From assembly GCA_963281255.1 (NCBI GenBank), contig OY725503.1, forward strand, positions 2,728,001 through 2,792,000: a DNA stretch of 64,000 nt. The letters are read 5' to 3'. Source of the DNA: Aphrocallistes beatrix (lineage: Eukaryota; Porifera; Hexactinellida; Sceptrulophora; Aphrocallistidae). The notes beneath the pieces are model-generated. The model ran no database searches. It was not told where the DNA came from and worked only from the letters and a program-made list of their open reading frames with translations. Position numbers and translations under genes: made by a program. Below are positions 32,001 through 55,867 of this stretch, piece after piece. Numbering within the stretch: the first letter of the stretch is position 1; the number at the start of each line of letters is the position of its first letter.

Positions 32001-35000
32001 AGGGGGGCGCTGAGAGTGAAAGGGGCGCTAGGGGGGCGCTGAGGGGAACTTGGGCCCTGAAAGAAAAAGATAAATTTTAGGGGGTATTTGCCCTTCTTAA
32101 TAACATATTGGTCAAATTGTATTATGAAAGTATAACATAAATCACTTGTAGATGTGGTTTCAAGTAATATTTATCGAATTACAGCTAACAATTGAACTCA
32201 AGTAAGATAAGGATTCTATTATTAACTTTATGTATTATTTATTGTCAAGAAGCGCTTGTTTGGATTCAAATAACGCCCACTTCCTCCCGAATCGTCTGTA
32301 TTCCATTCATCAATAGTATAAAAGGAAAACGAAATTCGTAATATATAATTATCGTCCAGAATATATTTTAGATAAAGGCTGAATGACTGCTTCAATTAAA
32401 AGGAAATGTCGACAATATTCCGTGGATTATTTGCGTTATGGATTTAGAGATAGTCAGATCCATCCCTTTGAGCAATGATACTGTATCTAGGAGAATCGAC
32501 GAGATGGCCATTGATGTAGAGAATCAGCTAATTGATATACTTCGAGTTATAGAATTTTCTCTCCAGTTGGATGAGTCTACTCTTCATGACAATGAAGCAC
32601 TATTACTGGCATACGTACGCTTTACAAAAGATGGAGTAGTATTCGAGGAATTACTATTCGCCAGATCTCTAGTTATGGATACGAGGGGAGTATCTATATT
32701 TGAAGTTGTTCGATCGTTTTTTGACTATCATAATATTCCTTTGTCGAACATTATTGCATGCTCAACGGATGGTGCACCTTCAATGATAGGTTGTTACCGA
32801 GGATTTATTGCTTTGTTAAAGAAGGCAGTTCCCAACGTGTTTGCCATACACTGTGTAATTCACCGACATCACTTAGTTGCCAAGAATCTTAGTGAGAAAC
32901 TCAATGTCTCACTCCAACTCGTTATTAAAGCAGTTAATGCTATCAAGACACGTGCTCTCAAAGACCGTCTTTTTCCGACAGCTTTGCCATGAGAATGGTA
33001 AACAATTTGAACGTCTCCTTCTCCACACAGAAGTCAGATGGTTGTCGAAGGGAAACTGTTTAAAACGGTTCAATGAACTATTTGATACAATAATCCAGTT
33101 CATGGAAGATTTCAAACCAGAGTTAGGTCATGATATCAGTATCCGAAAGCATGATATCGCATATCTAGCTGACATATTTGATAAATTGAATTCACTCAAT
33201 TTGCAACTTCAAGGCCAAAATGTTAATTTGATAAGAACTAAATCTGCCGTTTTATCATTTATAAATCGACTAACTCTGTATAAACAGAACCTCTGCCGTA
33301 GAGAGTTTTATCAATTCACTTATCTGCAAGCAGTTCCAGATGTCACTGATGATCAACTGCGAGTATATGCTTCGCATATTGAATCAATCAAGGAAGATAT
33401 GCTGATCCGGTTTAAGGACCTGAGAGAGCTCAATGTACCAGATTGGGTGGTCGACCCTTTTACTGCAGATCTAGAAAAGGTGGAAATTGAAATTCAAGAA
33501 GTATTAGCTGAGCTACAGGCTGATATAAAAATATCTTACGTTGGCCGCAGTTATGGGAAAGGTCAAAGCTTTTGATCATCGCATTTCCAACTTCATATTT
33601 AGTTGAGAAGGGATTCAGTACAGTAATGGGACTTCACACTAAGCAGCGAAATCGGTTGGATATATTGAAAAATGGCGACTTACGTTTAATGTTGACGAAT
33701 TTTGAGCCTGATGTAGCGAAACTTGCCGGTGATCATCAACCTCAGGGTTCCCATTAACTATGAATCTCAAGGCTAAATTACTAGAATTTGACTTTGAACT
33801 ACATTGATTGACAATTATTGCAGTATACTAGACATAGTATTAATCATGATTCTAAAATTCCTAAAAGTTACAAATTACAACTAGAAGGGGGGCGCTGAAA
33901 GAATTTATGGGACCAAAGGGGGCGCCAAAAGAAAAAGGTTGAGAACCACTGGTATATAGAATGTTATGACATATTCTATCAAAATTTTTGCTTTCTATGA
34001 TAGCTATTAGCTAACACCTAAAATGACTTAGTTATAGTCGAAAAACTGATATTTTTAATGATATAAAAGGGTGACAATGACGCCATAATTTCATGATGAG
34101 TCAAAATTTTCGTCTGAGGTCAGAACTTAGTCTCTCCCTACCCAAAATACTCCCACATGCCAAAAATCAGCTTTCTGTGCATGGTAATTTCATCAATCAA
34201 TTCGTTATATATATAACGCTATATAAATGTACGAATTGATTGAGAACATTACCAGGCTGAGAAAGCTGATTTTGGTATGAGAGTCTTTTAGCAATAACTT
34301 GAAAATCGTCATAGAACATCGATTATGAAGACATTTATTACAGAAGCAGTGACTTTGACTATCGATTTTCGCTGCGTGTCAGGAGTCAGGACACATTTTT
34401 CCCCCATAATACTCACCATACAAAACACAGTTCCAGGTCTTAGACTTGAAAAATATTTTACAATCATTGAAAATATTCGAATTACAATCTCTAAAGACCA
34501 TAATAACTAAGATTGTTTGAGTAAAAGACATTTTATATTTAACGAAGCTTGTTTCAGAACTTATGAGCCACCCTATAAGATAATATACATTTTAAAATTG
34601 ACATATCATATTTTAAAATGGAATGCACTCGAGATACTACATGATTTTCAATTTAACAATTAAAAATTAAATATCACCTTGAAATATTAATCTCAGATTT
34701 TGTATGAGAATCTAGTTTTTGTGTGTTATCTTTATGCTTGGGAACTGCCAAAATAGCACAATCAGATTCTTCGGTTACCTCACCATCTTCTGAATGTAAC
34801 AAACTAGTAGTATCTGGATTTTGATGTGATTCTTCCACCAGTGGTAAAGTTAGCATATTAGTAACATAATCCGGAATATCAGAATCTGCAGATAATTCTA
34901 AAGATCCTTTTTCCATAAAGATCACGGATTTTTTTAAAATATTTTCTATCTGAGAACGATTTTGAATATCCAGAGAGATCGAATCAAATAAACCTTTGGT

Positions 35001-38000
35001 ATATAGAAACCAAAATGAAACAAGACGCTGTAAAAAGGTAGATCTCATCCCCTGATTAAACTTTAATTTGATAACAGGATGATACCTTTCTTGAAACCAC
35101 TCTTCATTCTTATGCTTATCAAAAAAAGAAGAGATCAAACTCGCATTAATAGATTGTTTATAATCGCTGTACCTTTTCACAGATTCCACTTCATCAATCA
35201 TATCATCTTGATTCATCATAAACTGTTTGAATGTTAAGACAATAAATTTCCCAGAATCATCAATACTAGAGATTTTAGAAGGGTTTGAAGGCACACAATA
35301 ATCTTGAATATTAACTGTCAAAAGATAAATAATAGAAAATATATAAAATTTGAGACCATTTGACAGAAACTAGAACAAATTAATTAGGTAACTAATATTG
35401 ACTTGACCTCGTTCAAATATACTATTCATCTATATCATGCTGAATAATTGACCTTATTAATTTCATTACATCCCAATATCAGCATACAATTTTTAATATT
35501 GCCTAATGTTTCATCAAAGAGTTTTCTCTATCAACTTATGAATCCTCATAAAAATGTGTAAATATTTATCGCTATTAATCGTTACTATTAAAACTCGATT
35601 AATGTTTATACATATCTATATATCTATAACGAATTGATTGAAGAAACTACCAGGCACAGAAAGCTGATTTTTAGCATGTGAGAGTTTTTGGCTATGGCTC
35701 CACTAAGTTCGGAGCTCAGATGAAAATGTCGACTCAACATGGAATGTTGAGCCGCGCAGCATAAGCAAGCGAATTTACATTATATTCTCATTAAGTTGTT
35801 AAATAGCCAACTTAGGTATTGCTGTTGTTGGCTGAACGTTACGCTGGATCTAAAGAGAACACTGCACTGTTTGTGCTCCAGTGTAGCAATATCTACAACG
35901 CTCAAAGCAGCATTCGAAAACGCTGAGACACTTGAGGTGCGGCACTCTCATATACTTACATGGTATAATATACTGAGAAATATTTGAAATGTATCAGCCA
36001 CCACCTCTGTTACAAGATAAATACTATTAGTGCAAACACATTTTAGAGATAAACACTATTAGTGCAAACACAGCAAAAATATCCAAATAAAATTTCTACA
36101 AAAGGCAAGCAGTTCTCGGTTATAGAGGAGATACTTTTGGCCCTAATTGGATGAGGCGTTTCATCTTATTTAGGCTACCATATCATGACTATTTGCTCCA
36201 GTGCTGTTTTTGAGATGAGTTTCGATATACGCAACGTCACTCCAAAGATTTGGAATTAGAATCAAAAGCAGTTCAAGTTATGATATTTTTTAAATACTTT
36301 GAATAATTTCTTTTGCGAGGATTCAGTCAATTCTATATACTAGTCAAGCATGCTGAATTTCTAATGAATTTAACATTATTGAGCAAATTATTAAATGTCT
36401 AGAATGTATCATATTTTCACAATGTATAATAATACATAAATAACTCATTATTAAAATTTAAACAAGGCGGACAAAATTTACACTAAAATTCATACATATC
36501 ATCAAACAACACTAATCCGGTTAGATTATATAAATCCTAGCTTCCGAAAAAATAGGCAATAAAATATTTTACCATTTTCAATTGTCTTTTAAAGATATTA
36601 TGTGAATTTCGTAGATTATTCTTCATGACTTTGTAATTAAAAAAGATGTAGTTATAAATTAACAAAAATCTAGAGCTGTAAAGATATACACATATATTAA
36701 TAACTAATAATAAATTCACATTATTACTTTGTGTGAAATCGAATTATACACATTGAAATACCCTTTTAGAAGTTGGAATTTTGGATATCGTATTTTCGAT
36801 TGACAGATTTTTCAAAATCGATTCAGCAAGTGTAAAAATTTGAAATAGATTCGTCAAAGTAGTAAATATTTGGCAGTCGGCACCGGTCGGACTTCTCAAT
36901 TAGCTGATAATATTTTGCTAATATATTCTTTAGGTTATTTTGGTATGTTTTTGATGTTTACTTTAACCACAGGTGTAAATTCTTTACGAAAAAATTAGAA
37001 AAATTACCAACGAAAACAATTATTATCTTAAGTAACTAGCATATTAGTAGTGCCGGAATCCGTTTTTGATTTGATCTGGTGACGTCAGAATTTTTCAGAA
37101 ATTGGATTTTCCTCATTTCATATCGGATTTTACACGTAAATTGTAATCTGTCCGTCGCTTTGATATGTCCGGTTGTTTCCATACTGAGTATGGTATGAAT
37201 CAATTAAATTCGCTTTATAATTACCTGATTATACATGTTTCGGTCACACTAAATGATATTTATAGATAAAACTTCGATAAATCAGTCAAAATGTAGGGTT
37301 TTGTATTTTGTCATTTTTTAGTGTCCCACATAGCTGTCAACATATATTTTATATTGCTATTTTTCATATTTCCGTGTTTAACAAAACACTTGAATAAACA
37401 GTATCAGTTTAGAACGTGAGACATCAACTATTTTTCATGATTTATAGATCATATAATCTAAGGACTTATCATGTCCGGACATTATTATCCCGCCAAAATA
37501 AATGAATTCAATTTTCCAAAAATGTTATATTATCCTCTTCGTTATGTTGAACCTAGATTATATATTATAGTGATGTATATTACCGACATTGTGCGTTTGA
37601 AAATAAAGTTTCTGAAGATTTTATGAAGGATTTAGATTGCAAGTAAAACTGAAGAAATTGCATTATAGAAGTGGACAATAAACTCAATAAAAATATTTAG
37701 CCGACTGTAATTTGTGTGTACCTTTATTTAATATGCTATATATGTAGTAATTATATAGAATATATAATTCAATGTATAAAGGTAGATTCTTTTTATTGAT
37801 AAGATTTCATGCTTCACAGTTTTTGTTATCATTTGTGGTAGTGAAATTTAAGCTTCATAGAAATTGAATCCATTTTGTGTTTCTAGTATGTACTTCTTTT
37901 GTCTGAATCAATAAATACGTAGCTAATTATATTATAAAAACTCAAATAAACAGAATTACAAATCTCATTCTTTCTATTCTTGACAGTTATGGCAATGCCA

Positions 38001-41000
38001 AATGAAGTATCATTTCTTTGCGATGGTTATCACATTGATAATCTTTATCGTGTTTGTCGGTTGTGCTTCAACCGAACTTCATCCAGAGGAATACCGAAAG
38101 AATCTGTTCGCCAACCACTTACTCAGCTTGCAATAAATAGAGCACTTAAATACTACCAAATTGACTTCATGCAAGAGCTCGCAGACACAACTAAGCCAAA
38201 GGTACTTTGTTCAGGTTGTCGGTCTCGTCTAGCTAACCTAGAAACAGGAAAATTAACAACTGAAAAATGGGAAGATGATCATGCTAAAATTGCGATTCTA
38301 CCTTGTATTGAAGAGCAACAGTCTAGTACTCGTGGAACAATAAGGTGCAAAATGGAAAACCGCTGCTATGTTTGTCAGATCAATGCATCGTCACTCAATA
38401 ATTTCTTGACTAAACTCAAAGCTAATGTGCCTCGACCTGGCAGACCCTTAGAACAGCCGCCATCTGTGGCAATTTGTAGCAAATGCGGAATGCATTTGGA
38501 CAATCACGACCTTAAATTTTGTTCCAGCGTTTTCAAATATCCTCAGAGCTCCGCAATAGCTGGAAAACTATTTGCAGAAAGAGTAGAAGCCCGAGGCTAC
38601 ACAAGTAATGTGGCTGTTAACTATGTTAAAGAAACGTTGCAACTAGAAAGAAAGGATATTTCATGCTCTAGTAATAATCCTCCAATTGGTTTGAATCATC
38701 CTTATGATTCGAACAATAGACTAGCAATTACTACAGTTGGCTACGAAGGTAGAGGTGCTGTACTTAAGCAGTTGAGTGTTGAAGCAGCAAGAGATTTACA
38801 GAGGTTAGGCCATCTTGGTCTTGGGAAAAATTATTATTGGGAACTAGGGAGAATTCTACGCCGAGATGGAATTTCCTTTCCTGATGGTGGGATTAAACGC
38901 CGCATGGATGAAAAATGGGAAATATTTGGAAGTATTTTTACATCAATTATCCTTCCAATGGTAAATAAGAAATTGATACCTATCCAACAGCCTACTCCTT
39001 TCGGATGTTGTATTGACATCAATAATCTCCTCAACATTATTATTCATTCTCAGCCAGATTCTATCTCTAGATTGAAGCTTCAAGTTGACGGAGGGAAGGA
39101 TTTCCTGAAGATGTCAGTGAACATTATATTAATGCATCCAAATAGCCTATATACACCGACTGCAAATAGTGTACTTTCAAACTTTGTCGTTGCAATGGGA
39201 AACGCACCGGAGAATTATCATAATTTGAGGGAACTGTTTACATATTCATCTATTCGCAAATTATTTGAAAATGATATTCCCATACAGATAGCTTGCGATT
39301 TTAAAGTAGCGGCTTTGCTCGTGGGTATTCAACAAGCATCGAGCAACTACCTTTGTCCATTCTGTTTATGGCGCAATGGTTCACTCTGTACAGGCTTACC
39401 AGACAAAGCTAGGAAACACCACGATGGTTGATTTAGTTAGAAAACGCCATAATGGTTGATTTAGTTAGAAAACGCCATAACGTCATAAATAACCCAATAA
39501 TTTCCTGGTCCGAGTCACCAATGGAAAAAATAGCCCTCGCTCCATTGCATATTCTTCTTGATTTGGTAAACAGACTATACAATGAAGCAAGACCAAGTGA
39601 CAGTGCACCAAGTCGAAGGGATCGTCAGCTTTACAAGCATCACTGCTCAGCGCTCTGTCGATATATGGTACACCGATCTGAATATTGGAATGCTACTCTG
39701 GAGGGTAATTCCTGTTCTAGACTGCTGGATCATTTGGATGATATACCATTTGCTGATAGCTCAGTTAAATTCCTAAATGCATTGAAAACATTGAAACAAG
39801 TGAAGGATAATTGCTTAGGTAAGATAAGGAAAACCGGATGGCGTGAAAGTATACAAGCGTTTAAAGAAGCTTGGCGTGATGCAAATTTACCATGGTCGCT
39901 AAAATCTCATATTTTGTCTGATCACTACGAATAATATTTCAATCGTTTTGAAAGTATACCAGATGCCGATGCAGCAATTAGTTCAGAACAGAGTGGAGAA
40001 ATGCTTCATTCACGAATACAACAAGTTTGGAATCTTCGATTCAAGACAGGAAGAGAAAATCCTTTATATCCTCAGCGTCTTGTCGATTGTAAAGTGACTT
40101 ACAACTACAACCTACAGTGGGACAAAGTTACTAGATCAACAACAAAAGTAGAATTGAGTAATAATAAGGAAGGAGAAAATGATGAGGACAGTGATGACGA
40201 GGAAAGATTAGTGCCTCATAATTGGGAAACTGATTCTGAAAGCTCTGATTCAGATTAAGAATGGTTATTCCATGCTCCATTCATCTCCTTAGATAATTAA
40301 GTTATTTAACTAATTATATGCTTCTATATACGTATATAACATATTAAATTAAGTTACTCATTGATATTTTTTAAAAAGTATACAAATTCAAGTCGGCGAA
40401 ATATTTTTATTGAGTTTATTGTCCACTTCTATAGTGCAATTTCTTCAGTTTTACTTGCAATCTAAACCCTTCATAAAATCTTCAGAAACATTATTTTCAA
40501 ACGCACAATGTCGGTAATATACATCACTATAATATATAATCTAGGTTCAACATAACGAAGAGGATAATATAACATTTTTGGAAAATTGAATTCATTTATT
40601 TTGGCGGGATAATGTCCGGACATGATAAGTCCTTAGATTATATGATCTATAAATCATGAAAAATAGTTGTTGTCTCAGGTTCTAAACTGATACTGTTTAT
40701 TCTAAGTGTTTTGTTAAACATGCAAAAATGAAAAATAGCAATATAAAATATATGTTGACAGCTATGTGGGACACTAAAAAATGACAAAATACAAAACCCT
40801 ACATTTTGACTGATTTATCGAAGTTTTATCTATAAATATCATTTAGTGTGACCGAAACATGTATAATCAGGTAATTATAAAGCGAATTTAATTGATTCAT
40901 ACCATACTCAGTATGGAAACAACCGGACATATCAAAGCGACGGACAGATCACAATTTACGTGTAAAATGCGATATGAAATGAGGAAAATCCAATTTCTGA

Positions 41001-44000
41001 GAAATTCTGACGTCACCAGATCAAATCAAAAACGGATTCCGGCACTACTAATATGCTAGTTACTTGAGATAATAATTGTTTTCGTTGGTAATTTTTCTAA
41101 TTTTTTCGTAAAGAATTTACAGGGTGGCTCATAAGTTCTGTGACATTTTTTCATACCCATTAATTTAAATTTTAATTTGGATAATAAGACAGTTAATCAA
41201 ATTTATTTTATCACTAGATATTCAACATCAGTTTTTCATTAGTAATTTTAACATAAAATTCCATTTTAGTATTGTGTAGCTGCTAATGGAGCGTGATCGA
41301 TGTGCTGTAGTTGGATTATTTCAAGCGGGGTATAAACCGAAGGAAATTTCCAAAATGCTCAAAATGCCCAGGGGAAGAAGAATGTTTGTTGTTAGGGCCA
41401 TTAAGAGATATCTGGAGACTGGAAATGTTGAGGATAGAGCCAGGAGTGGACGTCCGTGTACTGTTGTGACCCCAAAGGTGCGCAAGACGGTGCGGGAACA
41501 AATTCGAAGAAATCCCCGGCGATTTATGCGTAAAATGGCATCAGTCATTAAAATATCTCGCCAATCTGTTCAAAGGATCGTTAGGGACCATTTAGGAATG
41601 AAATCATTCAAAAGGAAGAAGGTGCACTTCCTTACTGACAAGATAAAGGGAAAGAGACTGGTTAAGAGCAAGGGTCTGTTAAAGCGGCACGCTATTCATG
41701 GAATGAACAACATTCTTTTTTCAGACGAGAAATTATTCACGATAGAAGAAGCTAGTAATGCTCAAAATGACAGAATAATATCATATAGTGCTCATTCAAT
41801 CCCAGAAGAATTGCATTACGTTGCGCGAGTTCAGAAACCACTCTCTGTCATGGTTTGGGCTGGGGATTCGGGCATTGGTCGGACATCCCTGGGTTTGTTC
41901 CACCAGGAGCTAAAATCAATTCAATCTCGTATCGCGAGCTTATATTAGAGCCTGTACTGAAAGATATAAGCCAGTCCATGTTCGGGGAGTCTTTTTTTAT
42001 TTCAACAGGATGGTGCACCTGCCCACACCTCGAAACTCACCCAGGCATGGTTAAAGGAGAATATCCCCGATTTTATTACCAAGGAGGAATGGCCCCCCTA
42101 CAGCCCCGATTTGAATCCAATGGATTACTCGATCTGATCTATTTTGGAGACAAAGGCTTGTGCTAAAACCCACACCAATATATAGTCTCTTAAGGCGTCG
42201 TTGAGGAGAGAATGGGATAAAATACCTCAGGAAACACTGCGTGCTGCAGTAGAGGCCTTCCCTCGTAGATTAAATGCTGTAATTCAGAAGAAAGGAGGGT
42301 ATATAGAATAGTGATTATTTCTAGCATATTATTAGCAAAACATGCAAGTCTAGTGCAAATAGCAAGTAGGACCAGTGTATTTTAAATATATAAATGGGTT
42401 AATATAAATGTCACATAACTTATGAGCCACCCTGTACACCTGTGTATAACATAGATCATCGCCATGCACTAGATATTATCCATGGTACAAAGACAATTAC
42501 TCATTGAATGTGCCTTGTATATGGCAATTTGTAAACCTAAGACAAATCTTAGGAATTTTCTGACCTGTTTTAAGCATACAAATAAGCCTTATTAATATAT
42601 GAATATCGCAAAGAACTAAATCTGTCAGGGGTTGATCCGGAAAAAATTAAATTGATTAAAAATTCTGCATTGCTGTGTAGAAGAGTTTTTCCCATTTCAC
42701 TTATTTTATTTATGCCATAAAGTAAATATATGACTAGATATTCAAATTTAATATTAATCGGACTGGTATCTTGCGATAATTGACTCTTGGGTTAAATGAA
42801 AAGACCAATACGTGGGGGAAGATTTGATTACTTTAAAAGTCTTAAATATCAGGTGGAACAATGGGAAAAAGGACTCCACAGGAATTTTTTGCCACTGGAA
42901 TTAAAAAGTTGCCAGAGCAATAGAATAAATGTGTAAAGTTGCTGTCATAATTTTTGTATAAATCAAAAAAAGTACTTGTTATTTTTGGACAACCTTTGTG
43001 CAAGTATATTTGCAACTTCCTAAAAGTGTAGTAAATATGCTTGAACTCTGTTTAAGAGAGCTGGATCATCTGCACTCATTTCAGTAGCAGGTTGGTGTTT
43101 ACATTTCATAATACGATCGAATTGATAAACTATTTATCATTATTTAAAAAGCTTTACAACAATATCAGGTTTGCCCAATTTTCAATGGATATTCGGGGTT
43201 TCGTAGGCATCGAAAATTTGAAAAATACTAATAAATTGTAAATAAAGATAGTGAAATATGGAAGTTGTACAAATATAATGAATGGAATATCTGTGTTTGG
43301 GTGTTACCTATCAAACTAACCAAATATGTAAATGGATTCGCAAGATAGAAAAATCTAGTGAGTTGAAACTTTTGACATATGTATACTATTTGACATCTAC
43401 TATTTGACTTCTATTATTCCGTATACATTGATATTAAACAATTCTTTTTCACAGGCACTGTATTTTGTAGATTTGAAGGGACATTCATAATCAAAACAAT
43501 ATTATCACAAAATATAAGATTATCGAAAAGAGGTGGGGAGGTAGGGAGGCATCTGCTTGGGTGGTGCAGTGGTTAGGGCGTTTGAATACCAAGACTTAGG
43601 TCGCGGGTTCTAACCTCACTCTAGTCATTTGCATTTTACTCTCAATTACATTGCTTCGGTAATGTAATCTGAGCCTACACTCTTGCAGAACCTTAGTGAG
43701 CTGAAAGCACTAAGGATGTCATCTCGTTTAAAGGTAAAGTTAGGTCAGGTGCTATCTTTCTTGCCTACTGTTAGCCGAGTTTTTCTCTGTAACACGCCAT
43801 CATATGCACACAGACATGCCATCATATGCATACATACACGCCGCATGCACATATTCAGCAACTTTCAGTAGGTTTAGCACCTCACCCAGATTGTAAACCC
43901 CCTGAGAACATATTAGCATGGATTCAGGGGGTATATAAATCTATAAACTTTTTAACTTTAAAATGGTTGGGTGCAGCCGAAAGAGCGCAGCTGAGATCCT

Positions 44001-47000
44001 AAGGAAACACAGACTGATTGGCTCGAAGAGACATCACTATATCGGGTAGGCTTCGTGCCACAACTAAAAGGCAAGACAGCTTATTAGTCAGAAAATGCAA
44101 AAAGGATCGATTTAAGACTGTTACTCAGATCAGAGCCGAAGTATTATCAGAATATTCGCTAAAACCTTCCACTTCAACAGTCCAGAGAAGGTTGCGAAGG
44201 GCTGGACTATTCGGACGGAAATCACTAAGGAAGCCCCGCCTAACTCTCAAGCATAAGAGAGACTGTCTTGCCTTCGCAAGGGCACACAAGGACTGGAGTT
44301 CTGAAGAATGGGGGAGATTTGTGTTCAGTGACGAATCTCGATTCCTTCTCTATACTAATGACGGGAGAATGTACGTGAGGAGAATGAAAGGGGAGAAGTT
44401 GTATCCAAAAACCTGCAAATTTGGTGCGGGGGGCATCATGGTTTGGGGATGTTTTTGCTGGAGTGGCGTAGGACTCTTGAGAAAAGTATCTGTGAAAGTC
44501 AAGACAGATTAGACATTTATATTTTGAAAAATGCTCTACTTCCAAGCGTTGATTTGCATTCTCTAAACTCTGGATAGACATTTCAGCAGAACACACCATG
44601 CCACAGGTCAAAGGGTACTAAGCAGTGGTTCGATGAGCAAAAATAGAGGTAATTACTATGGCCTGCACAGTCACCTGATCTAAATCCGATTGAGAACTTT
44701 GGGATCAATTTCCCCTAAGAATTCAAGAGAAAAGCCAATCCAACCACTCGGAGTTGTGGAATGCTATATTGAGTACTTGGGATAGTATCAACACTAAGCA
44801 GCTCCATACTCTGATAGATAGCATGCCGCAAATATGTAAGGCTGTAATTCAAGCAAGGGAGGTTCTACTAAATACTGATGACAATTTATTTGATTATGAT
44901 AAAGTATCACTGTCAAAATCAATCAGGGACTTAAAAACTTTGGGTAAATTCATTTTGAGCAATTCGTTTTGACCGGCACTGTAAAAGTGCAGATATATCA
45001 TACAGATTCAAAAAAACAATTCTTTGGATTGTTTAAATAATCTAGTTAAATCTTGATACCAACCGAGAATTAATATTAAAATCCTATCCTAATTCTCCTC
45101 TTCTTCCTACTCCACCACAACCACCAACCATTCCTCACTATAGGCCTACACCTCTCCTCCCTCTTCCTTGGAGGCCTATCTCCTCACTCAGCTCGCACTC
45201 TCCTAGTATAAATAGGATCGAGCCAGCTGATCTTCCACTTCCGAATCCTAATTCTCCTCTTCTTCCTACTCCACCACAACCACCAACCATTCCTCACTAT
45301 AGGCCTACACCTCTCCTCCCTCTTCCTTGGAGGCCTATCTCCTCACTCAGCTCGCACTCTCCTAGTATAAATAGGATCGAGCCAGCTGATCTTCCACTTC
45401 CGAATCCTAATTCTCCTCTTCTTCCTACTCCACCACAACCACCAACCATTCCTCAATATAGGCCTACACCTCTCCTCCCTCTTCCTTGGAGGCCTATCTC
45501 CTCACTCAGCTCGCACTCTCCTAGTATAAATAGGATCGAGCCAGCTGATCTTCCACTTCCGAATCCTAATTCTCCTCTTCTTCCTACTCCACCACAACCA
45601 CCAACCATTCCTCAATATAGGCCTACACCTCTCCTCCCTCTTCCTTGGAGGCCTATCTCCTCACTCAGCTCGCACTCTCCTAGTATAAATAGGATCGAGC
45701 CAGCTGATCTTCCACTTCCGAATCCTAATTCTCCTCTTCTTCCTACTCCACCACAACCACCAACCATTCCTCAATATAGGCCTACACCTCTCCTCCCTCT
45801 TCCTTGGAGGCCTATCTCCTCACTCAGCTCGCACTCTCCTAGTATAAATAGGATCGAGCCAGCTGATCTTCCACTTCCGAATCCTAATTCTCCTCTTCTT
45901 CCTTTATACTCAGGTCTATCTTTCTTTTAAACCCGGTTCCATCTCTTCTGAAGAATCTGCTTTTTCCGCCATCCAATCTTGCATCTCCGCGATCCGTTCC
46001 TGGCTCCTCACCAACAAGTTGCTTATCAATGACACCAAGACTGAGTTCCTTATAATAGGGACTCGTCAACAACTATCTAAGGTTCAAACTGATAGCATCT
46101 CTGTTGGTGAGTCGAGAATCTCTTCTTCCAAAGAAGTAAGGAATCTTGGAACTTGGCTCGACAATACCCTCTCAATGTCTACTCAGGTCAGCAAAGTTGC
46201 CTCCTCCTGCTTCTATTACATCTATAACATCCGGCGTATTAGAAAGTATCTCTCTAGGGAAGTCTGTGAAACTCTTGTCAATTCTCTTATCACATCTCGT
46301 CTTGATTATTGTAACAGTCTCTTGTATGGTTGCCCCTCATCCCTCTTAGCTCGACTCCAGCGAGTCCAGAACAGTGCAGCCAGGCTTATCTACAATGTCT
46401 CTCGTACCTTTTCGTCATCTCCTCTTCTTATTAACCTCCACTGGCTGCCTGTTAAACATCGTATCCTCTTCAAAATCCTCCTCATAACTTACAAAGCCAT
46501 CCATTCTCTTGCTCCGGACTATATCATCCAGCTCATACAGGTTAAGTCATCCAATCGTACTCTACGATCATCCAACGCCATCCTCCTTGAGCATCCTACT
46601 ATCAAATCTTCCAAAACTCTGGGTGATCGTGCATTCACTTTAGCTGCGCCTGTTGAGTGGAATCTTCTGCCTCCGAGCATTCGGAATGCCCCCTCACTTC
46701 TTCTCTTCAAAAAACTCTTGAAAACTCATCTTTTCCGTATCGCGCACGACACATCCACTTAAATTAATTTCAATGCATATACATACCTTACAAGCATACA
46801 TACACATACATACGCATACATACACATACATACGCATACATACACATACATACATAACACACACCTACTTTTATTGAATTGTACAGCGCACTTGAACATA
46901 TTAATATGGAATCTGCGCTATATAAATGTATATTATTATTATTATTATTATTCCATGATGAGTCGACATTTTCGTCTGAGCTCAGAACTTACTGGAGCCA

Positions 47001-47134: not shown

Positions 47135-48885
47135 TAATCGAGTTTTAATAGTAAGGATACACAGAATAGAAGGTCGAAAAATCTGAAAATTTGAATTTTT
47201 GGAAGCACACTCTATAAAATAGTTAACCTTGATCACCAAGTATTTACCAAAAAATTGCTATTTGGAAAGAAATTTGGAGATGATCTAAAGGTCGCGCAAA
47301 AGAGGCAAACCTCTGATATTCAAATAAACTAAGAAATTTATTTTTTAGATATTTGAAAGTGGTTTATATCAGCTAATAATGACCTAAATTCTACCTACTA
47401 AAAACTGGAAGGGAGAAAAAAGATTTGCTCATTGACCGGGGATTATGGAGTTAACAATACATAATAATGTGATGGTTTCAAAAACAATCGGACCATAGAA
47501 GATCGAGAGGAAACTCATACGGCGGGCCTATTAAGTTTACAATTCTTTAATAACAATGAGCACTTTCGCGCAATTTCTATTCATTAGATAAATAAACGCT
47601 AACCAGACAAAATTATTAGTACACTATATTATTTCCCATTAAATAGTATTAAATTGGATCTTATCATGATGGAAATTGTATTCAAACTTTAAGAAATACT
47701 AAGTCTAAGTGTCTGATTTAAGATTCGAAATCTGCGCAATCGAATCAGTAATAGTTTAAGAATTATAATAAAATGTCAACCATGGCATATTGATAAACGA
47801 TCGTATAGCTCATCCAGAAGGCATGAAAAATAGGCCAGTTTTAAAGACAGCTGAAAGTATAATTAGACCCATAAATCAAAAACCGTATACGAAAGAACTT
47901 AGAAGTATAGAATTACGATATTTCCCTAAGTTGACTAATTCATCGAAAGATGATGAAGAATTGTGAATTATTCAAAATCTCAAACATTAGTACAGATTAT
48001 ATGCCCAAAAGTGGTTAAAAGGTTGCTCATGTTATATACCTCTAACAATGCTCAGTCTCTAAAGCAAAATATTAAATATTTTTTTCATTATTTAGTTTCA
48101 AATTCTGAGTAATTCATTGATAATCCATGAATTAGTCAACTTAGATATTTCTTTACTATTAAAAATAGATTAAACAATTAATGTATACGCAAAGTTCTGA
48201 CCTCAGACAAAAATATCGACTCATCATGGAAATATGACGTCATTGTCACCTTTTTTAGAATAAGAAATTTCAGTTTTTCGACCATAACTCAGCCATTTTA
48301 GGTGATAGAAGGCAGAAATTTTAAAAGAATGTGTACAGGGATTTACTTGCTACTTAGTACATTTTTATTTTTGTGAACTCGATACAGAGTTGCAATTCAG
48401 GTGTCAAAATTTTTTAGAATTTATGCAGAAGTTTAAAAAGAAATTTGGAATTTCAATACAAGTTAAGACAAATTCCACAATTCTGAGCAAAATGCAACAT
48501 AAATTTTGATAAAAAATATTAAGTCATCGGGTTGTTCGGGGGGGCGACAAATGGAAGGAGGATTAGCATAGGAGTATAAACGGTACATTTGCATAGAACA
48601 GAGAGACAAATTAACAAATAAACTGAATAATATGTACGCACCATCCCAAGGATGCCAAGGAATTGTAAAGCTACGTGAATCGCGGGGATCACGTTTATTG
48701 CGTTTAAGAGATCTGTTTGTAGGTGAATATTCCCTTTTGGTTTTCCATTTTGAATCAAAATCAGGTTGAGCTAAATTTCTCCTCTTATTATCAAATTCTT
48801 CTTCATTACCCAAATTTTCCCTCTCTCTCTTAAATTTGTTCCGATCTCTCCGTTTAAGATCATGTTCTTCTTCACTATCACCCAT
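13249..48885 (-). CDS. SRRT: SRRT / ARS2 (serrate RNA effector), five coding exons spanning 35.6 kb
   Basis: SRRT/ARS2 is a nuclear protein that binds the cap-binding complex and directs capped transcripts to miRNA processing, 3'-end formation or decay. Coding parts are 48885-48642, 35314-34678, 28905-28480, 18859-18703 and 14022-13249. Splice phases match at every junction (1, 2, 2, 0), all introns are GT..AG, and the joined frame is 746 codons including the stop; vertebrate SRRT has roughly 870-880 residues. The family pattern is present end to end: an acidic/basic start (MGDSEEEHDLKRRDRNKF), the TFKQF...DEVESVKRY region, a divergent RRM-like middle, the zinc finger [20 protein letters not shown], a proline-rich stretch and a C-terminal SYKDWDDPNLDN. 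Introns of 13.3, 5.8, 9.6 and 4.7 kb are full of mobile elements. A small extra exon cannot be excluded. Confidence 0.92.
14495..14640 (+). repeat. Module M fragment (GC-rich 3' end)
   Basis: GACAGATGTATTTAGAGATG, then a GCGCCC...GGGCGCCTCC stretch, GCGGACACAAAGT and AGCAAGCGAAGGGCGCTTGT match the 3' portion of the complete module M copies at 54.8-57.2 kb. It lies in SRRT intron 4. Confidence 0.7.
15361..15507. repeat. Two-copy tandem repeat, period about 73 bp
   Basis: GCATATACGACTTCTGCAT at 15376 recurs as GCACATACGATTTCTGCAT at 15449, each followed by a diverged AATTATATGAATTCT. It lies in SRRT intron 4, with no coding content. Confidence 0.6.
16170..16917. mobile_element. Tc1/mariner-type MITE with long TIRs
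   Basis: TA dinucleotides (16168-16169, 16918-16919) flank a 748-bp element starting CTTAGGTCATTTCATAAG and ending with the inverse AATGGAATGACCTAAG. The inverted similarity extends about 180 bp inward (TATAGCTCAGGGAATCAGC near 16251 against GCTGATCCTCTGAGCTATA near 16819). There is no transposase. Confidence 0.85.
17958..18095. repeat. Foldback repeat (about 37-bp arms)
   Basis: TGATTTGTCGGTTTGGGGCT near 17961 is inverted as AGCCCCAAAATCGGACAAAT near 18065. The same unit recurs as an almost flawless palindrome at 49137-49217. Outside and between the arms the two loci also share TTCAAAGAAACTAGTAA. Confidence 0.7.
18185..18540. mobile_element. Probable MITE with GGTTAACCGGTTAACCG boxes
   Basis: CGGTTAACCGGTTAACCGAT at about 18237 and CGGTTAACCGGTTAACCGAA at about 18513 bracket an AT-rich core, with further partial boxes outside (GGTTAATCGATATTCGGG) and inside (CTTAACCGTTAACCGT). 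Such arrays are typical of hAT-like MITEs. The exact ends and target duplication are not certain. Confidence 0.5.
18703..18859 (-). CDS. SRRT: SRRT exon 4
   Basis: The acceptor is TTTTTCTAG (ends 18860) and the donor GTAAGA (begins 18702). 157 bases: one base finishing the codon split from exon 3, then ITDKNPLLQN, an acidic stretch (AAAEKAEEEEEG) and YRRDEHLLS, ending on a codon boundary. It corresponds to the NP-L-KN ... acidic ... RDEKL region just before the C-terminal domain in other SRRT proteins. Confidence 0.88.
19264..19343 (+). repeat. Module M tail fragment plus TA-rich microsatellite start
   Basis: CTCCAGGCGTCTACAAGG, then GCCGCGAAGCGCGCTTGTAA is a diverged module M 3' end. It is followed by a TA/TATA-rich microsatellite to about 19402. 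Confidence 0.6.
19420..20603 (+). other. GC-richer stretch upstream of the Penelope-like RT
   Basis: Base composition is richer in GC and poly-C than its neighbours and broken frames occur in all plus-strand phases. It is probably the N-terminal part of the Penelope-like element that follows, but I recognise no domain. GTGCCCCGGG at 20161-20170 and CCCGGGGCAC at 20184-20193 form a perfect 10-bp hairpin. Confidence 0.35.
20604..21313 (+). pseudogene. Penelope-like element reverse transcriptase fragment
   Basis: A frame of 197 codons, continued after a frameshift to 21313. Visible are IVHIDKGNGLAIIQTETLQR (the PLE 'ADKGN' region), PPSFYFKVKAHKSNFPAR (the KxHK...R motif before RT proper), and LFTMDIKS followed by HELAMEAISFYL (RT motif A with its aspartate). 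A 129-bp in-frame tandem duplication (period from 20651 to 20780) repeats 43 residues at the N-terminal side. The element ends abruptly at 21313, before the YxDD box; the GIY-YIG endonuclease is not present. Confidence 0.65.
21648..22590 (+). pseudogene. Tc1/mariner-type transposase, DD37E-like, multiple frameshifts
   Basis: The DNA-binding N-terminus reads ENVRTIRRWWDN, GRGRKKSLTKVGKMI, and NGITASYMTVQRYLKS (paired-like HTH). After a decayed middle, the frames around 22405-22590 give QDDASAHNATWTQYWCKQHL, FWAKSTCPGNSPDL and NLIENLLAMC. A one-base loss lies between SPDL and the IEN motif; allowing for it, 37 residues separate the second D from the E. Non-functional. Confidence 0.7.
22650..23022 (+). 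mobile_element. tRNA-derived SINE, copy 1
   Basis: It begins CATCTGCTTGGGTGGTGCAG with a pol III A-box-like GTGGTGCAGTGGTTAGG and, about 45 bases on, a B-box-like GGGTTCTAACC. A tRNA-unrelated body and a GTATATAAATCTATA end follow. It closely matches the copy at 43550-43946. It sits inside the Tc1-type relic, so the SINE inserted later. Confidence 0.8.
23598..24190. mobile_element. Tigger/pogo-like MITE
   Basis: It starts CACCCCCGCTAATCCGAACC and ends with the inverse GTATTAGCGAGGGTG, flanked by TA (23596-23597, 24191-24192). Reiterated CGCTAATCCGAA motifs follow the left end, as in pogo/Tigger elements. It contains a hAT-type MITE at 23738-24010. Confidence 0.8.
23738..24010. mobile_element. 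hAT-type MITE (CTAAGTTGAC family), copy 1
   Basis: A 273-bp element with inverted ends CTAGGTTAACTAATTCATGA and TGAATTAGTCAACTTAG and perfect 8-bp flanks GTTAAAAC (23730-23737, 24011-24018). The interior is a string of AATTCATGAATTATTCGAA-type palindromes. A second copy is at 47926-48144. Confidence 0.88.
24773..25186. mobile_element. TIR element (CAGTCCACTTCCGAAA family)
   Basis: CAGTCCACTTCCGAAAACGG at the left and CCGGATTTCGGAAGTGGACTG at the right are inverse with few mismatches, and further GC-rich inverted boxes (GGGCGCCCCGGTTTTCGAG against CTCGCCCCGGTTTCCGAG) lie inside. The right side is followed by TA; the left TA is not intact. No coding capacity. Confidence 0.7.
25530..25838 (+). 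repeat. Module M fragment, diverged
   Basis: TTTTAGGTGATAGAAGGCTG, ATGATGACTCGTCACC, GTTATGACATCTTCATTACG and the GC-rich tail CGCCTCCGGCAGACAAAGTA follow the order of the complete module copies; here both bZIP-type sites are degraded by point changes. SRRT intron 3. Confidence 0.7.
26463..27303. mobile_element. Tc1/mariner-type MITE with about 90-bp TIRs
   Basis: TA at 26461-26462 and 27304-27305 flank an 841-bp element. Its inverted ends share CTGAATT, TGATATATATATTGACCATA and GAATTTTTTA. It contains a GGCCGGCC-rich patch (26640-26661) and the strong hairpin at 27103-27217. Confidence 0.75.
27103..27217. repeat. Long hairpin-forming inverted repeat
   Basis: AAAAGCCCCTCACAGAGGGC, then AGAAGTGTGCTTCC and ATTCCTTGGATGAC on the left are matched on the right by GTCATCATCCAAGGAAT, GGAAGGACACTTCT and GTCTGTGAGGGGCTTTT. 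The arms are about 52 bases with few mismatches and the loop is short. Confidence 0.85.
27340..28267 (+). pseudogene. Mariner (DD34D) transposase, frameshifted
   Basis: The HTH region is at 27481-27678 (LEPHITIEGIANHVDLSSGT, then VHEILSLHLGLRKVCFRWVP), followed by a frameshifted stretch and the catalytic domain 27791-28267. The second aspartate is in LLHDNARLHKS and the third in YSPDLVPCDFWLF; 34 residues lie between them, which defines mariner DD34D. The first aspartate region near 27680-27790 is scrambled. Clear terminal repeats were not found. Lies in SRRT intron 3, antisense to the gene. Confidence 0.8.
28480..28905 (-). CDS. SRRT: SRRT exon 3 (RRM-like middle domain)
   Basis: The acceptor TTTTTATCTAG ends at 28906; the donor after CAG is GTGATA (28479). 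426 bases read AISAKGFPLSIKRQDIEDCC, KPFDKLIRLFLTDP, RNAWLAFTS, YVKAIDG and AIKLVREFDEKN. This fits the divergent RRM-like region of SRRT (family pattern: ISRAEI..LCK..PGF.RVAL..P, later ...NDIKLA..LI..LD). Phase 1 entry and phase 2 exit agree with its neighbours. The stretch normally just before this (HKTCSLFMRN in vertebrates) is not evident and may be lost, diverged or in an undetected small exon. Confidence 0.88.
28906..29990. other. Intronic DNA, nothing recognised
   Basis: Apart from AT-rich sequence with weak resemblance to a decayed Tc1-like element near 29160-29400, I see no supported feature before the module M copy at 29995. Confidence 0.3.
29995..30265 (-). repeat. Module M copy, reverse orientation, partial
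   Basis: It starts with the GC-rich tail in reverse (AAGCGCGCTTCGATTGG, GGCGGACACTTTGCGTCCGCC as a perfect hairpin) and runs through GATGCGTAATGATGACATC and GTGATGAGTCATCATTTTTT to about 30265, where it abuts sequence also found at one end of the repeat pair 30515-31960 / 57235-58645. The AP-1-like TGAGTCA is kept; the CRE-like site is degraded. Confidence 0.75.
30515..31960 (+). repeat. 1.4-kb interspersed repeat, copy A (inverted copy at 57235-58645)
   Basis: Landmarks shared in reverse with 57.2-58.6 kb include ACTTCATGAAGTTTTTCAAT, GCCTGCTGGTTGTCAG, a shared MITE insertion, GAAAGGCCGGAGTGTGAT, a run of AAGTCTGTCTCTCAAGCTAA-type tandem units (31610-31700) and TTAGTATATAGAATG at the end. 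The hAT element 31948-33951 is inserted at the right end; the B copy is the empty site. No LTR or coding identity is established, though the part near 30570-30670 could encode an exon-like fragment in both copies. Confidence 0.75.
31126..31273. mobile_element. CATAGGCGTAA-type MITE in copy A
   Basis: The ends CATAAGCGTAAC and GGAGTTTATG are diverged forms of those in the B-copy element 57906-58059. ACGAT lies just outside the left end. Because both copies carry it, the MITE inserted before the 1.4-kb repeat spread. Confidence 0.6.
31948..33951 (+). mobile_element. hAT transposon with perfect 8-bp target duplication
   Basis: The 2004-bp element starts CAGGGGTTCTCAACGGGGGC and ends GGTTGAGAACCACTG. 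GTATATAG is directly repeated on both sides (31940-31947, 33952-33959). The related, unoccupied sequence near 57247-57260 (reverse strand) has that 8-mer once, in the same context. Subterminal GGGGGCGC motifs occur at both ends. It encodes a broken Buster/ZBED5-like transposase (32383-33757). SRRT intron 2, antisense. Confidence 0.93.
32383..33757 (+). pseudogene. hAT transposase (ZBED5/FAM200/SCAND3-like), broken
   Basis: A possible start at 32383 gives MTASIKRKCRQYSVDYLRYGF, the usual N-terminus of this group, but the sequence then jumps to the catalytic region, so the BED zinc finger and some following residues are deleted. Next come LQLDESTLHDN (first D), ACSTDGAPSMIG (second D), HCVIHRHHLVAKNL, and after a frameshift HTEVRWLSKGNCLKRF. 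After another frameshift comes TSYLVEKGFSTV (the E of the hAT motif) with HTKQRNRLD and DLRLMLTNFEPD at the dimerisation end. Frames are 32438-32992, 32877-33575 and 33572-33757. Similar genes were domesticated in vertebrates; this one is not intact. Confidence 0.88.
33990..34290. repeat. Module M-related fragments around an AACGAATTGATTGA inverted repeat
   Basis: CACCTAAAATGACTTAG, GACAATGACGCCATAATTTC, CAAAAATCAGCTTTCTG and AATCAATTCGTTATATA run in reverse-module order; from about 34213 the start of a forward module follows (TACGAATTGATTGAGAAC). This makes a head-to-head pair joined at a short TA-rich centre. Confidence 0.65.
34678..35314 (-). CDS. SRRT: SRRT exon 2 (N-terminal conserved region)
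   Basis: The acceptor TATCTTTTGACAG ends at 35315; the donor after CAAG is GTGATA (34677). 637 bases give NIQDYCVPSNPSKISSIDD, then LTFKQFMMNQDD, DEVESVKRYSDYKQS, FFDKHKNEEWFQERYHP, a region with LQRLVSFWFLYTKGLFDS, and an acidic serine-rich end. It matches the SRRT N-terminal block (TFK.FL..LDD..DE.EAVKRY.DYK ... F...H..EEWF...YHP). The first two bases complete the codon begun in exon 1; the last two are completed by exon 3. Confidence 0.92.
35575..35790 (+). repeat. Module M copy with large internal deletion
   Basis: It starts TTACTATTAAAACTCGATTA, continues ACGAATTGATTGAAGAAAC and AAAATGTCGACTCAACATGG, then jumps directly to the tail GAGCCGCGCAGCATAAGCAA. The two conserved ends without the middle indicate an internally deleted derivative. 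Confidence 0.75.
35791..36967. other. Intronic DNA, nothing recognised
   Basis: AT-rich sequence. A 24-29 bp duplication (GATAAATACTATTAGTGCAA near 36015 and GATAAACACTATTAGTGCAA near 36047) is the only structure noted. Confidence 0.3.
37980..40258 (+). pseudogene. Transposase with RAG1-N-terminus-like Cys layout and putative DDE core
   Basis: The first frame (37980-39431) has cysteine pairs C26-C29 (VCRLCFNR) and C77-C80 (LCSGCRSRL), with LAINRALKYYQIDFMQEL between, then C129-C132 (RCYVCQ) after a spacer and C166-C169-H172-H176 (CSKCGMHLDNH). RAG1 has the same order upstream of its RING finger: CxxC, ...IDV...CHNC, then SCDICNTA. Acidic catalytic candidates are the D in LQVDGGKDF, the D in IACDFKVAALLVG (followed by CPFC) and the E in ISSEQSGEMLHSRI. 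The second frame (39452-39934) and third (40001-40258, acidic tail) are separated from the first by a frameshift at a 28-bp tandem duplication and from each other by a single TAA. Otherwise it is well preserved. The family assignment is by motif only. Confidence 0.65.
39424..39479 (+). repeat. 28-bp tandem duplication in the transposase gene
   Basis: ATGGTTGATTTAGTTAGAAA begins at 39424 and again at 39452, and the units are identical. It coincides with the loss of reading frame in the transposase. Confidence 0.9.
41120..42434 (+). mobile_element. DD37D (maT-like) mariner element nested in a TIR
   Basis: The ends are CAGGGTGGCTCATAAGTT and AACTTATGAGCCACCCTG, with TA on each side (41118-41119, 42435-42436). 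Removing the element and one TA restores GAATTTACACCTGTG, the inverse of the left TIR end of the host transposon. Its 1315 bp enclose a broken transposase gene. Confidence 0.93.
41286..42300 (+). pseudogene. Mariner-type transposase, DD37D, frameshifted
   Basis: The HTH N-terminus is at 41286-41948: MERDRCAVVGLFQAGYKPKE, RSGRPCTVVTPKVRKTVREQ, SRQSVQRIVRDHLGMKSFKR; the first D is in ILFSDEKLFTIE. A frameshift near 41870-41900 moves to PGAKINSISYRELILEPVLK; further shifts give QQDGAPAHTSK and PYSPDLNPMDYS. Exactly 37 residues lie between the second and third aspartates, the maT (DD37D) pattern. A typical C-terminus (VEAFPRRLNAVI) ends near 42300. Confidence 0.85.
42445..43549. other. Intronic DNA, nothing firmly recognised
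   Basis: AT-rich. TTTTTCACAGGCACTGTATT at about 43446-43465 looks like an isolated right end of a Tc1-like element (compare GACCGGCACTGTA at 44971-44983), but no matching left end was found. Confidence 0.3.
43550..43946 (+). mobile_element. tRNA-derived SINE, copy 2
   Basis: CATCTGCTTGGGTGGTGCAG begins the element. The A-box-like region is at 43561-43577 (GTGGTGCAGTGGTTAGG) and the B-box GGGTTCTAACC at 43605-43615, close to tRNA spacing. The body is co-linear with 22650-23022, including TCTCAATTACATTGCTT, CTTGCAGAACCTTAG, GAGTTTTTCTCTGT and CCCTGAGAACATATTAGCA, with a GTATATAAATCTATA end. It abuts a Tc1-like relic. Confidence 0.82.
43960..44981 (+). pseudogene. Tc1-type (DD34E-like) transposon relic
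   Basis: The long frame 44018-44512 has GRLRATTKRQDSLLVRKC, STVQRRLRRAGLFGRKSLRK, KPRLTLKHKRDCLAFARAHK, VFSDESRFLLYTNDGRMYV (first D) and MVWGCFCWSGVGLL. After a frameshift the second motif reads QQNTPCH (D changed to N), followed by WPAQSPDLNPIENFG (E). The C-terminal frame 44754-44972 (LWNAILSTWDSINTKQLHTL) completes the protein. The right end GACCGGCACTG is followed by TA; the left end is missing, possibly at the SINE. Confidence 0.82.
45086..45900 (+). repeat. 159-bp minisatellite, five full units
   Basis: AATTCTCCTC recurs at 45091, 45250, 45409, 45568, 45727 and 45886: a strict 159-bp period. Units are almost identical; the only clear variant is TTCCTCACTATAGG in units 1-2 against TTCCTCAATATAGG in units 3-5. 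Each unit has a TATA-box-like TATAAATAG (first at 45207-45215). As 159 is divisible by three, one frame stays open across the array (45046 to a TAA at 45928-45930) and would encode a proline-rich 53-residue repeat (PTPPQPPTIPHYRPTPLLPL), but there is no ATG. Confidence 0.95.
45902..46955 (+). pseudogene. L2/CR1-like LINE reverse transcriptase C-terminal half, 5' truncated
   Basis: The frame starts right after the minisatellite within the catalytic box (TQVYLSFKPGSISSEE) and runs open to 46762: LLTNKLLINDTKTEFLIIGT, VRNLGTWLDNTLSM, ICNIRRIRKYLS-like region, LITSRLDYCNSLLYGCP, LQRVQNSAARLIYN, LHWLPVKHRILFKILLITYK and LKTHLFRIAHDTST. These are thumb and C-terminal motifs of L2-type LINEs. The 3' UTR holds ACATAC-type microsatellite DNA (46778-46860), the common tail TGCGCTATATAAATGTA, and a (TTA)n end at 46930-46953. 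The open frame over 280 codons suggests a fairly young insertion. Confidence 0.88.
46778..46860. repeat. (ACATACGCAT)n-type microsatellite
   Basis: Alternating CATACATACACATACATACG units in the LINE 3' region. Confidence 0.85.
46955..47156 (-). repeat. Module M 5' part, reverse orientation, with (TA)n
   Basis: GATGAGTCGACATTTTCGTC, CTGGAGCCATAGCCAAAAG, AATCAATTCGTTACAGATA, a long (TA)n at 47071-47130, then CATTAATCGAGTTTTAATAG to 47156: the 5' third of the module in reverse. The small frames here that encode YIYIYI are microsatellite artefacts. Confidence 0.8.
47157..47420. repeat. Interspersed repeat also found at 49010-49310
   Basis: TTGATCACCAAGTATTTAC, GATGATCTAAAGGTCGCGC, TATTCAAATAAACTAAGAA and TATCAGCTAATAATGA are shared in order with 49.0-49.3 kb. 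The 49-kb copy has the palindrome 49137-49217 at the position where this copy has only GCAAAAGAGGCAAACC. Confidence 0.65.
47926..48144. mobile_element. hAT-type MITE (CTAAGTTGAC family), copy 2
   Basis: The ends CTAAGTTGACTAATTCAT and ATGAATTAGTCAACTTAG are inverse. The flanks ATATTTCC and ATATTTCT agree in seven of eight bases. Same family as 23738-24010. Confidence 0.85.
48195..48335 (+). repeat. Module M fragment (central part)
   Basis: GTTCTGACCTCAGACAAAAA, TATCGACTCATCATGG, ATATGACGTCATTGTCACC (perfect CRE core TGACGTCA) and AGGTGATAGAAGGCAGAAAT lie in module order. It is in SRRT intron 1 about 300-450 bases downstream of exon 1. Confidence 0.75.
48642..48885 (-). CDS. SRRT: SRRT exon 1 (start codon, N-terminal charged region)
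   Basis: ATG at 48885-48883; donor GTGCGT begins at 48641. It reads MGDSEEEHDLKRRDRNKFKR, a charged Arg/Lys/Glu stretch with LKRNKRDPRDSRSF and the end IPWHPWD. The family begins [20 protein letters not shown], and the last residues match PWGHPDV, where the V codon is split G|TT between exons 1 and 2. The stretch past 48641 in the same frame is intron. The bases upstream contain a CCAAT on the minus strand at about 48910. Confidence 0.93.
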
Positions 48886-49136
48886 TAAAAAAATGAAAGT
48901 ACTCTATTATTGGATTAACTAATAAATAAAGATAAAGAAAAAAAGGAAAAACAGACATCTGATATAGAGAAGAGCTGATTTATTATCCGTAATATTAAAA
49001 CTCGATTAATGCTCCAAAAAATACGAAAGTTTGACTCTTTAGATGCACACTTTTCAAATAGTTTACTTGATCACCAGATATTCACAATAAAAGTTTCAAA
49101 CATTTTGGAGGATGATTTAGTCGTCGCGCAAGGTAG

Positions 49137-54777: not shown

Positions 54778-55294
54778 TATATATATATATGTGTAACGAA
54801 TTGATTGAAAAAACTGCCGGTCATAGAAAGCTAATTTTTGGCATGTGGGAGTCTTTTGGCTATGGCTCCAGTAAGTTCTGAGCTCAGAGCAAAATGTCGA
54901 CTCATCATAGAATTATGACGTCATTGTCACGTTTTTAAAAGTTAATCAATACAGTTATTAAAGCATATCTCAGTCATTATAGGAGATAGAAGGCTGAAAT
55001 TTTAATCTGTATACTAACATACCACACAAATGATGGACCTATAATCAAAAAATGATGACTCATCACTTTGTTATGACGTCATCATGACGCATCATAAAAT
55101 TTAAAATTGACAAATTTGGTGATTTTTCGAGTAATATCGATTATAACAGTAGGACAGACATATTTAGAGATGCTATCTCCCTTATAATCAACCAATGTGA
55201 CCCCAGGCAACCGAAGGGAGCCTCTGGCGGACACAAAGTGTCCGCCATCCGCGCAGCGCAAGCAAGCGAAGCGCGCTTGTGACAGATATATATA

Positions 55295-55723
55295 CACTGC
55301 CTGAATAAAAGTATTCATGCATCCCATAATTCCCCATACAAATAGTTATAATACTGATTTATTTAGTGAGTCATGGTATTTAATTGGTAAGAGATACCCT
55401 TAATTTAACTTCAAATTCGAATTCTCAACATTCAAATTACCCACTTTATAAGTTTTCAACTTAATTACTCTTCTTCAAGATTAAGTATTCTCTGCATTTG
55501 CTTTCCTATGCAACATGTCACGAGTGATCACCATTGTGGTATGAGGTGGCACAGTTTGAAATTTTTTTACCTTGTGGTAGTGTAAACAAGTTGAAAGATT
55601 AAAAGGAAGTTAAATTCAGCATATCTCTTATCAATTAAATACCTTGACTCGCTAAATAAATCAGTATTATAACTATTTGTATGGGGAATTATGGGGTGAA
55701 CCAATACTTTTGTTCAGGAAGTG
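55295..55723. mobile_element. Mariner-type MITE with about 120-bp TIRs
   Basis: CACTGCCTGAATAAAAGTAT and ATACTTTTGTTCAGGAAGTG are the inverse ends, with TA on each side. The inverted identity continues for about 120 bp (CCCATAATTCCCCATACAAA, ATAATACTGATTTATTTAG). Confidence 0.9.
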
Positions 55724-55734
55724 TATATATACAA

Positions 55735-55866: not shown

Positions 55867-55867
55867 T

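Follow-up and report, generated by a model that had tools for sequence, protein, structure and literature searches.

The genome of the sponge Aphrocallistes beatrix carries, on contig OY725503.1 of assembly GCA_963281255.1, a transposon with long terminal inverted repeats, which was analysed within a window of 64,000 nt (positions 2,728,001-2,792,000, forward strand; coordinates below count from the first base of this window). The window has a G+C content of 35% and resembles animal DNA, and the element spans positions 36968-42444, a footprint of 5477 bases that includes a second, nested insertion. Its structure and coding content indicate that it is probably an autonomous DNA transposon, now degenerate, from the CACTA-Mirage-Chapaev-Transib (CMCT) clade, with Chapaev as the most likely branch, about 4.16 kb long and apparently lodged in an intron of SRRT/ARS2. 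The features of the locus are as follows.

36962-36967, forward strand: left flank TTTAAC, a possible imperfect target duplication (flank comparison).
36968-37715, forward strand: left terminal inverted repeat, beginning CACAGGTG (repeat search, pairwise alignment).
37989-39431, forward strand: transposase open reading frame (ORF) piece 1, 480 amino acids, with CRLC, CSGC, CYVC, CSKCGMH, LQVDGG (first D), ACDF (second D) and CPFC, the C(2)C motif (ORF list, translation).
38055-38528, forward strand: Chapa-like cysteine-rich region, residues 23 to about 180, extent approximate (alignment with RAG1).
39407-39462, forward strand: 28-bp tandem repeat, 39407-39434 and 39435-39462, copies 82% identical (repeat search).
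39437-39934, forward strand: transposase ORF piece 2, 165 amino acids, with LH and H(4)H, closing at an in-frame stop (ORF list, translation).
39935-40258, forward strand: transposase ORF piece 3, 107 amino acids, with the putative catalytic E (SSEQSGE) and an acidic tail (ORF list, translation).
40382-41119, reverse strand: inner portion of the right terminal inverted repeat, ending where the nested element is inserted (repeat search, pairwise alignment).
41120-42434, forward strand: nested Tc1/mariner-like element of 1315 bp with stops and frame breaks inside (inverted ends, Pfam, flanking TA).
42435-42444, reverse strand: outermost part of the right repeat, TACACCTGTG, 1.3 kb distal across the nested element (sequence).
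42445-42450, forward strand: right flank TATAAC, a possible imperfect target duplication (flank comparison).

The inverted repeats, put at about 740 bp in the original prediction, are confirmed at a length of about 748 bp: the left and right arms are identical at 719 of 734 aligned bases, with short gaps besides, and resolve into three segment pairs (36974-37391/40704-41121, 37392-37485/40609-40702 and 37484-37715/40382-40613) that are 97-98% complementary. The outer ends read CACAGGTG from 36968 and CACCTGTG finishing at 42444, so that the element begins with 5'-CAC and closes with GTG-3', as Chapaev elements do. These outer limits had been placed correctly from the start, but the interval between them had been taken for a single element, and the separate insertion at 41120-42434 was overlooked. 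The insertion lies within the right repeat, is bounded by TA at 41118-41119 and 42435-42436, begins its own terminal inverted repeats with CAGGGTGGCTCATAAGTT (its 50-nt inverted ends are 84% complementary) and encodes a paired-box/helix-turn-helix N-terminus according to Pfam. Since its 1315 bases and one TA are foreign to the host transposon, the latter's own length comes to about 4160 bp. Further Tc1/mariner-type transposase fragments are present in the window at 27644-28267 and 44018-44512 (Pfam DDE_3/Transposase_1 and HTH_Tnp_Tc3_2).

The transposase is encoded in three pieces amounting to about 750 amino acids, and every motif for which the ORF was first singled out (CRLC, CSGC, CYVC, CSKCGMH, LQVDGG, ACDF and SSEQSGE) is present in the translation. 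The longest open frame has 493 codons; shuffling the bases to the left of the nested insertion 1000 times never produced one as long, the maximum being 162. The frame breaks at the position of the 28-bp tandem repeat, and a single in-frame stop lies between pieces 2 and 3. It had been proposed that one frameshift and one stop were the only lesions; this is wrong, as the Tc1/mariner-like insertion also splits the right repeat. The copy is dead, with the frame for the whole protein broken and its right end divided; its arms are still 98% identical, so that at most it could have been mobilised by the enzyme of another copy before the nested insertion took place. A pyrimidine-rich stretch ending in AG lies directly 5' of the first ATG, which makes an upstream exon possible; two exons, of about 78 and 480 amino acids, are given for the Chapaev3 elements Merrow and Garfield (PMC4079192), than which the transposase described here is longer.

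The part of the protein that follows residue 190 contains, in order, LQVDGG, ACDF, CPFC, PLHILL, SHILSDH and SSEQ. Its D, D, C(2)C, LH, H(4)H and E motifs thus follow the order published for the CMCT clade, to which RAG1 conforms as well. Counted against RAG1 positions D708, C727, H937 and E962, themselves obtained by counting from D600, the spacings in the sponge protein and RAG1 are 70 and 108 residues from D to D, 19 and 19 from D to C, 61 and 67 from C to LH (the 61 including residues contributed by the tandem repeat), 121 and 143 from LH to H, and 26 and 25 from H to E; the agreement at 19 and at 25 or 26 residues was established by comparison with RAG1 only. Among the five PDB alignments shown, three have Q at the position of the last E of RAG1, presumably in chains of catalytically dead mutants. 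A broad version of the motif signature turned up 45 times when the sequence after residue 190 was shuffled 50000 times, and in 66 of 20000 shuffles of the whole protein; a narrow version turned up in 3 of 50000 shuffles of the sequence after residue 190, a figure that is optimistic because the limits of the narrow signature were set post hoc from RAG1 and the sponge protein themselves. A DDE transposon of the RAG1/Transib/Chapaev kind is supported by these ordered catalytic and zinc motifs and by the CAC...GTG ends. The diagnostic motifs among them, CPFC as C(2)C together with LH and H(4)H, had gone unnoticed in the original prediction. A C(2)C and an H(3-4)H motif are common to RAG1 and the entire CMCT clade (PMC12730594), and here CPFC and HILSDH lie between the second D and the last E. 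Chapaev elements are marked by CAC/GTG ends and by the motifs C(2)C, LH and H(4)H (PMC4079192), and CPFC, PLHILL and SHILSDH supply the last three. Chapaev is considered the likeliest branch on account of the animal host, the CAC/GTG ends, the cysteine-rich N-terminus that precedes the core and the combination of LH and H(4)H, all of which the element shares with Chapaev, Chapaev3 included.

The N-terminal region carries CxxC pairs at residues 23/26, 74/77, 126/129 and 163/166, and three such pairs at loose spacings arose in 30 of 20000 shuffles of the first 190 residues. The best local alignment with human RAG1 places CRLC opposite CRIC and CSGC opposite CHNC in register, without being forced to do so. 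With a gap opening of -9, its score was reached by 41 of 2000 free shuffles (z 2.8) and by 97 of 2000 shuffles in which the cysteines were held fixed (z 1.9), and both CxxC pairs fell in register in 35 of 1000 cysteine-fixed shuffles; with a gap opening of -7 the counts were 38 and 106 of 2000. The match has some specificity, given that, at a gap opening of -9, reversed RAG1 gave no signal (1244 of 2000 free and 1643 of 2000 cysteine-fixed shuffles reaching the score) and the RING/zinc-dimerisation region of RAG1 gave little (565 and 673 of 2000), while for the N-terminal region aligned with the RAG1 core 161 of 1000 shuffles reached the score. The parallel first drawn with the zinc-binding region of RAG1 is consequently specific, with its first two cysteine pairs in register, but weak, and a RAG1-like, or Chapa-like, N-terminus is no more than suggestive on these alignments. 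In RAG1, residues 87-217 form a central non-core domain with conserved cysteines, mutated in pairs at 110/113, 175/178 and 210/213; this domain takes up two zinc ions, binds double-stranded DNA and has a part in nuclear localisation (PMC3124419). Kapitonov and Koonin described the Chapa domain as a truncated RAG1 N-terminal part in TransibSU, and the same account reports this zinc domain for Chapaev, Chapaev3, TransibSU and RAG1, with a RING finger following it in two Chapaev subgroups (PMC4411706). A RING finger behind the Chapa-like region was considered and rejected, since CYVC ... CSKCGMH ... C does not follow the RING order when compared by eye with the consensus; Pfam lists no RING family for any of the ORF pieces and several for RAG1 in the same scan.

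Several results weigh against the assignment to the CMCT clade and to Chapaev. No ORF piece has a significant match to a Pfam family or, by phmmer, to a PDB chain; the best Pfam matches do not reach the cut-offs of the families concerned, which are unrelated, for instance Lipoprotein_20 for piece 3 (E 0.0091) and, in the N-terminal region, an enzyme family (E 0.069). Outside its motifs the core is no more similar to RAG1 than shuffles are, the alignment scores being reached by 150 of 1000 shuffles for the rest of piece 1, 494 of 1000 for piece 2 and 597 of 1000 for piece 3, and AlphaFold2 single-sequence models were unusable (predicted local distance difference test scores of 31.4 for 480 amino acids and 48.5 for 97 amino acids). 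The gap between the first and second D is short beside that of RAG1 (70 against 108), and the narrow signature also accepts D343, D357 or D371, close to LQVDGG, as the first D. The RAG1 likeness of the N-terminus weakens once the cysteines are held fixed (97 of 2000, as above) and again under a stiffer gap opening of -11 (63 of 2000 free and 154 of 2000 cysteine-fixed shuffles). Relatives were found neither among viral contigs, by protein search with pieces 1 and 2 and by degenerate patterns at the second D and C(2)C, nor among genome contigs, where a protein search with piece 1 yielded ten stretches by peptide pattern only and the pattern search nothing; the degenerate patterns rested partly on general transposase motifs. 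Ten loci that matched patterns were dismissed as chance after tblastn of the three ORF pieces against them gave no E below 0.2, and the one plasmid match to piece 1 (E 0.5) is an MmgE/PrpD protein and no relative. Lastly, a 3-4 bp duplication abutting both ends, as reported for Chapaev (PMC4079192), was not found, AAC and TAT, and likewise TAAC and TATA, being different; this single decayed copy differs from Chapaev in that respect and in having no recognised RING finger, which is reported in only two Chapaev subgroups.

The flanks admit more than one reading. No exact target duplication of 2, 3, 4 or 5 bp is present at the ends of this single decayed copy, and the 6-bp flanks TTTAAC and TATAAC agree at five of six positions, as do 0.77% of random flank pairs at that length; some duplication-like match across the lengths tried occurs in 3.75% of random pairs. 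An exact 4-bp TAAC adjoins the element on the left and is found again two bases beyond its right limit, an arrangement that would fit Chapaev if the right end had gained two bases.

Among the alternatives, the one that the original prediction favoured, membership in the N-RAG-TP family known from Aplysia, is unlikely. In PMC8355894, N-RAG-TP is a transposable element similar to the N-terminus of RAG1, and the in-register alignment of the first two cysteine pairs with RAG1 speaks for membership; according to the same source, however, N-RAG-TP is RAG1-N-terminal-like throughout, whereas the element in the window carries the motifs of a DDE core as well. N-RAG-TP may itself be a Chapaev element, in which case the two readings would merge.

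It is quite improbable that the element is a CMCT transposon from outside Chapaev, for instance from a lineage making 6-bp duplications, that acquired its cysteine-rich and possibly zinc-finger associated domain (ZAD)-like N-terminus independently. The near-match of the 6-bp flanks speaks for such an origin, as does zf-AD, the sole weak Pfam match that spans both leading cysteine pairs and resembles their pattern (CRLC...CSGC, residues 22-84, E 0.27). The zf-AD score is 11.9 bits against a cut-off of 28 and disappears from the list when a longer piece is scanned, so that identity with this domain was rejected, and no literature was found that joins RAG1 with ZAD; the frequency of duplication-like matches in random flanks and the exact 4-bp TAAC, with two bases gained at the right end, argue in the other direction. 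More specifically, a separate CMCT lineage that had a RAG1-like (Chapa) zinc N-terminus but no RING, and with it a divergent DDE core, roughly 750-bp repeats and target duplications of 6 bp, appears very unlikely; if real, it would lengthen the 2-5 bp range of target duplications reported for the whole clade (PMC12730594).

A Transib or RAG-like (RAG1L) transposon, to which the CAC ends, the RAG1-like order of core motifs, the first two N-terminal CxxC pairs and the ID...P...C pattern shared with RAG1, TransibSU and ProtoRAG might point, can be dismissed as extremely unlikely, given that the 5-bp duplication described for protostome RAG-like elements (PMC7204232) is absent (TTAAC and TATAA agree at 2 of 5), that the Pfam RAG1 family (PF12940) lists no piece at E up to 10 while scoring the RAG1 core itself at E 0, that core similarity to RAG1 does not exceed that of shuffles, that the D-D gap differs and no RING is recognised, that no RAG1 or Transib chain appears among the PDB matches of the window pieces, and that there is no RAG2-like gene, no ORF above 69 amino acids being found in the element outside the transposase frame and the nested insertion. 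The profile match to RAG1 on which the original prediction offered to be judged is likewise wanting in Pfam, RAG1_imp_bd not being listed for the N-terminus in a scan that gives the RAG1 region itself 4.2e-97. The resemblance of the repeat ends to the CACAGTG heptamer, also put forward as evidence of kinship with RAG, was set aside: CACAGGTG adds little in this respect, as Chapaev, Transib and RAG-like elements all share CAC/GTG ends (PMC4079192, PMC7204232). What stands is half of that interpretation, a distant kinship to RAG1 that the sequence suggests through the core motifs first, and probably as a Chapaev element.

In the Chapaev-type reading, the element when intact would have been a cut-and-paste transposon. 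Its transposase, helped by the zinc N-terminus, would bind the long inverted repeats ending in CACAGGTG. Cleavage at the CAC ends, and their joining to new target DNA, would fall to an RNase-H-like site of D, D and E that, like the one in RAG1, has a C(2)C/H(4)H zinc site inserted in it. By analogy with residues 87-217 of RAG1, the Chapa-like cysteine-rich N-terminus would be a zinc-folded module for DNA binding and nuclear import.

Around the element lie pieces that belong to SRRT/ARS2, on the reverse strand.

13249-14022, reverse strand: ARS2 domain (Pfam, E 2.7e-35).
34674-35369, reverse strand: SERRATE/Ars2 N-terminal domain (Pfam, E 9.3e-26).
48463-48903, reverse strand: ORF containing MGDSEEEHD, with no Pfam match (ORF).

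The last of these presumably corresponds to the start of SRRT, which it resembles, and if so the interval 36968-42444 lies within an SRRT intron. The SRRT/ARS2 exon-like pieces extend across some 35 kb and have transposons in the intervals. Other repeats are found in the window as well: 159-bp tandem units at 44927-46021, with central copies 99-100% identical and a proline-rich repeat open in one frame (45046-45930); nested large inverted and direct repeats at 54778-57188, with inverted arms 91-96% complementary and further related copies around 34, 47 and 48 kb; and a large imperfect palindrome at 219-3419, whose arms are 77-83% complementary across several segments. Positions 59607-59806 form a run of 200 unknown bases that reflects either a gap in the assembly or masking, and Rfam and tRNA scans of the window gave 0 and 0 matches.

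An element of this kind is already described in the literature on N-RAG-TP, Chapaev, Chapaev3 and the Chapa domain, and we judge it ordinary for an animal genome; this particular family was not found in print, no search capable of showing it having been made. Chapaev-type elements, TransibSU and other RAG-like elements have been reported with the RAG1 N-terminal zinc domain (PMC4411706, PMC7204232), and each of them hence bears on whether the ancestor of the V(D)J recombinase possessed it. Being a broken, single copy with a weak N-terminal match, the Aphrocallistes element adds a data point to this question rather than an answer.

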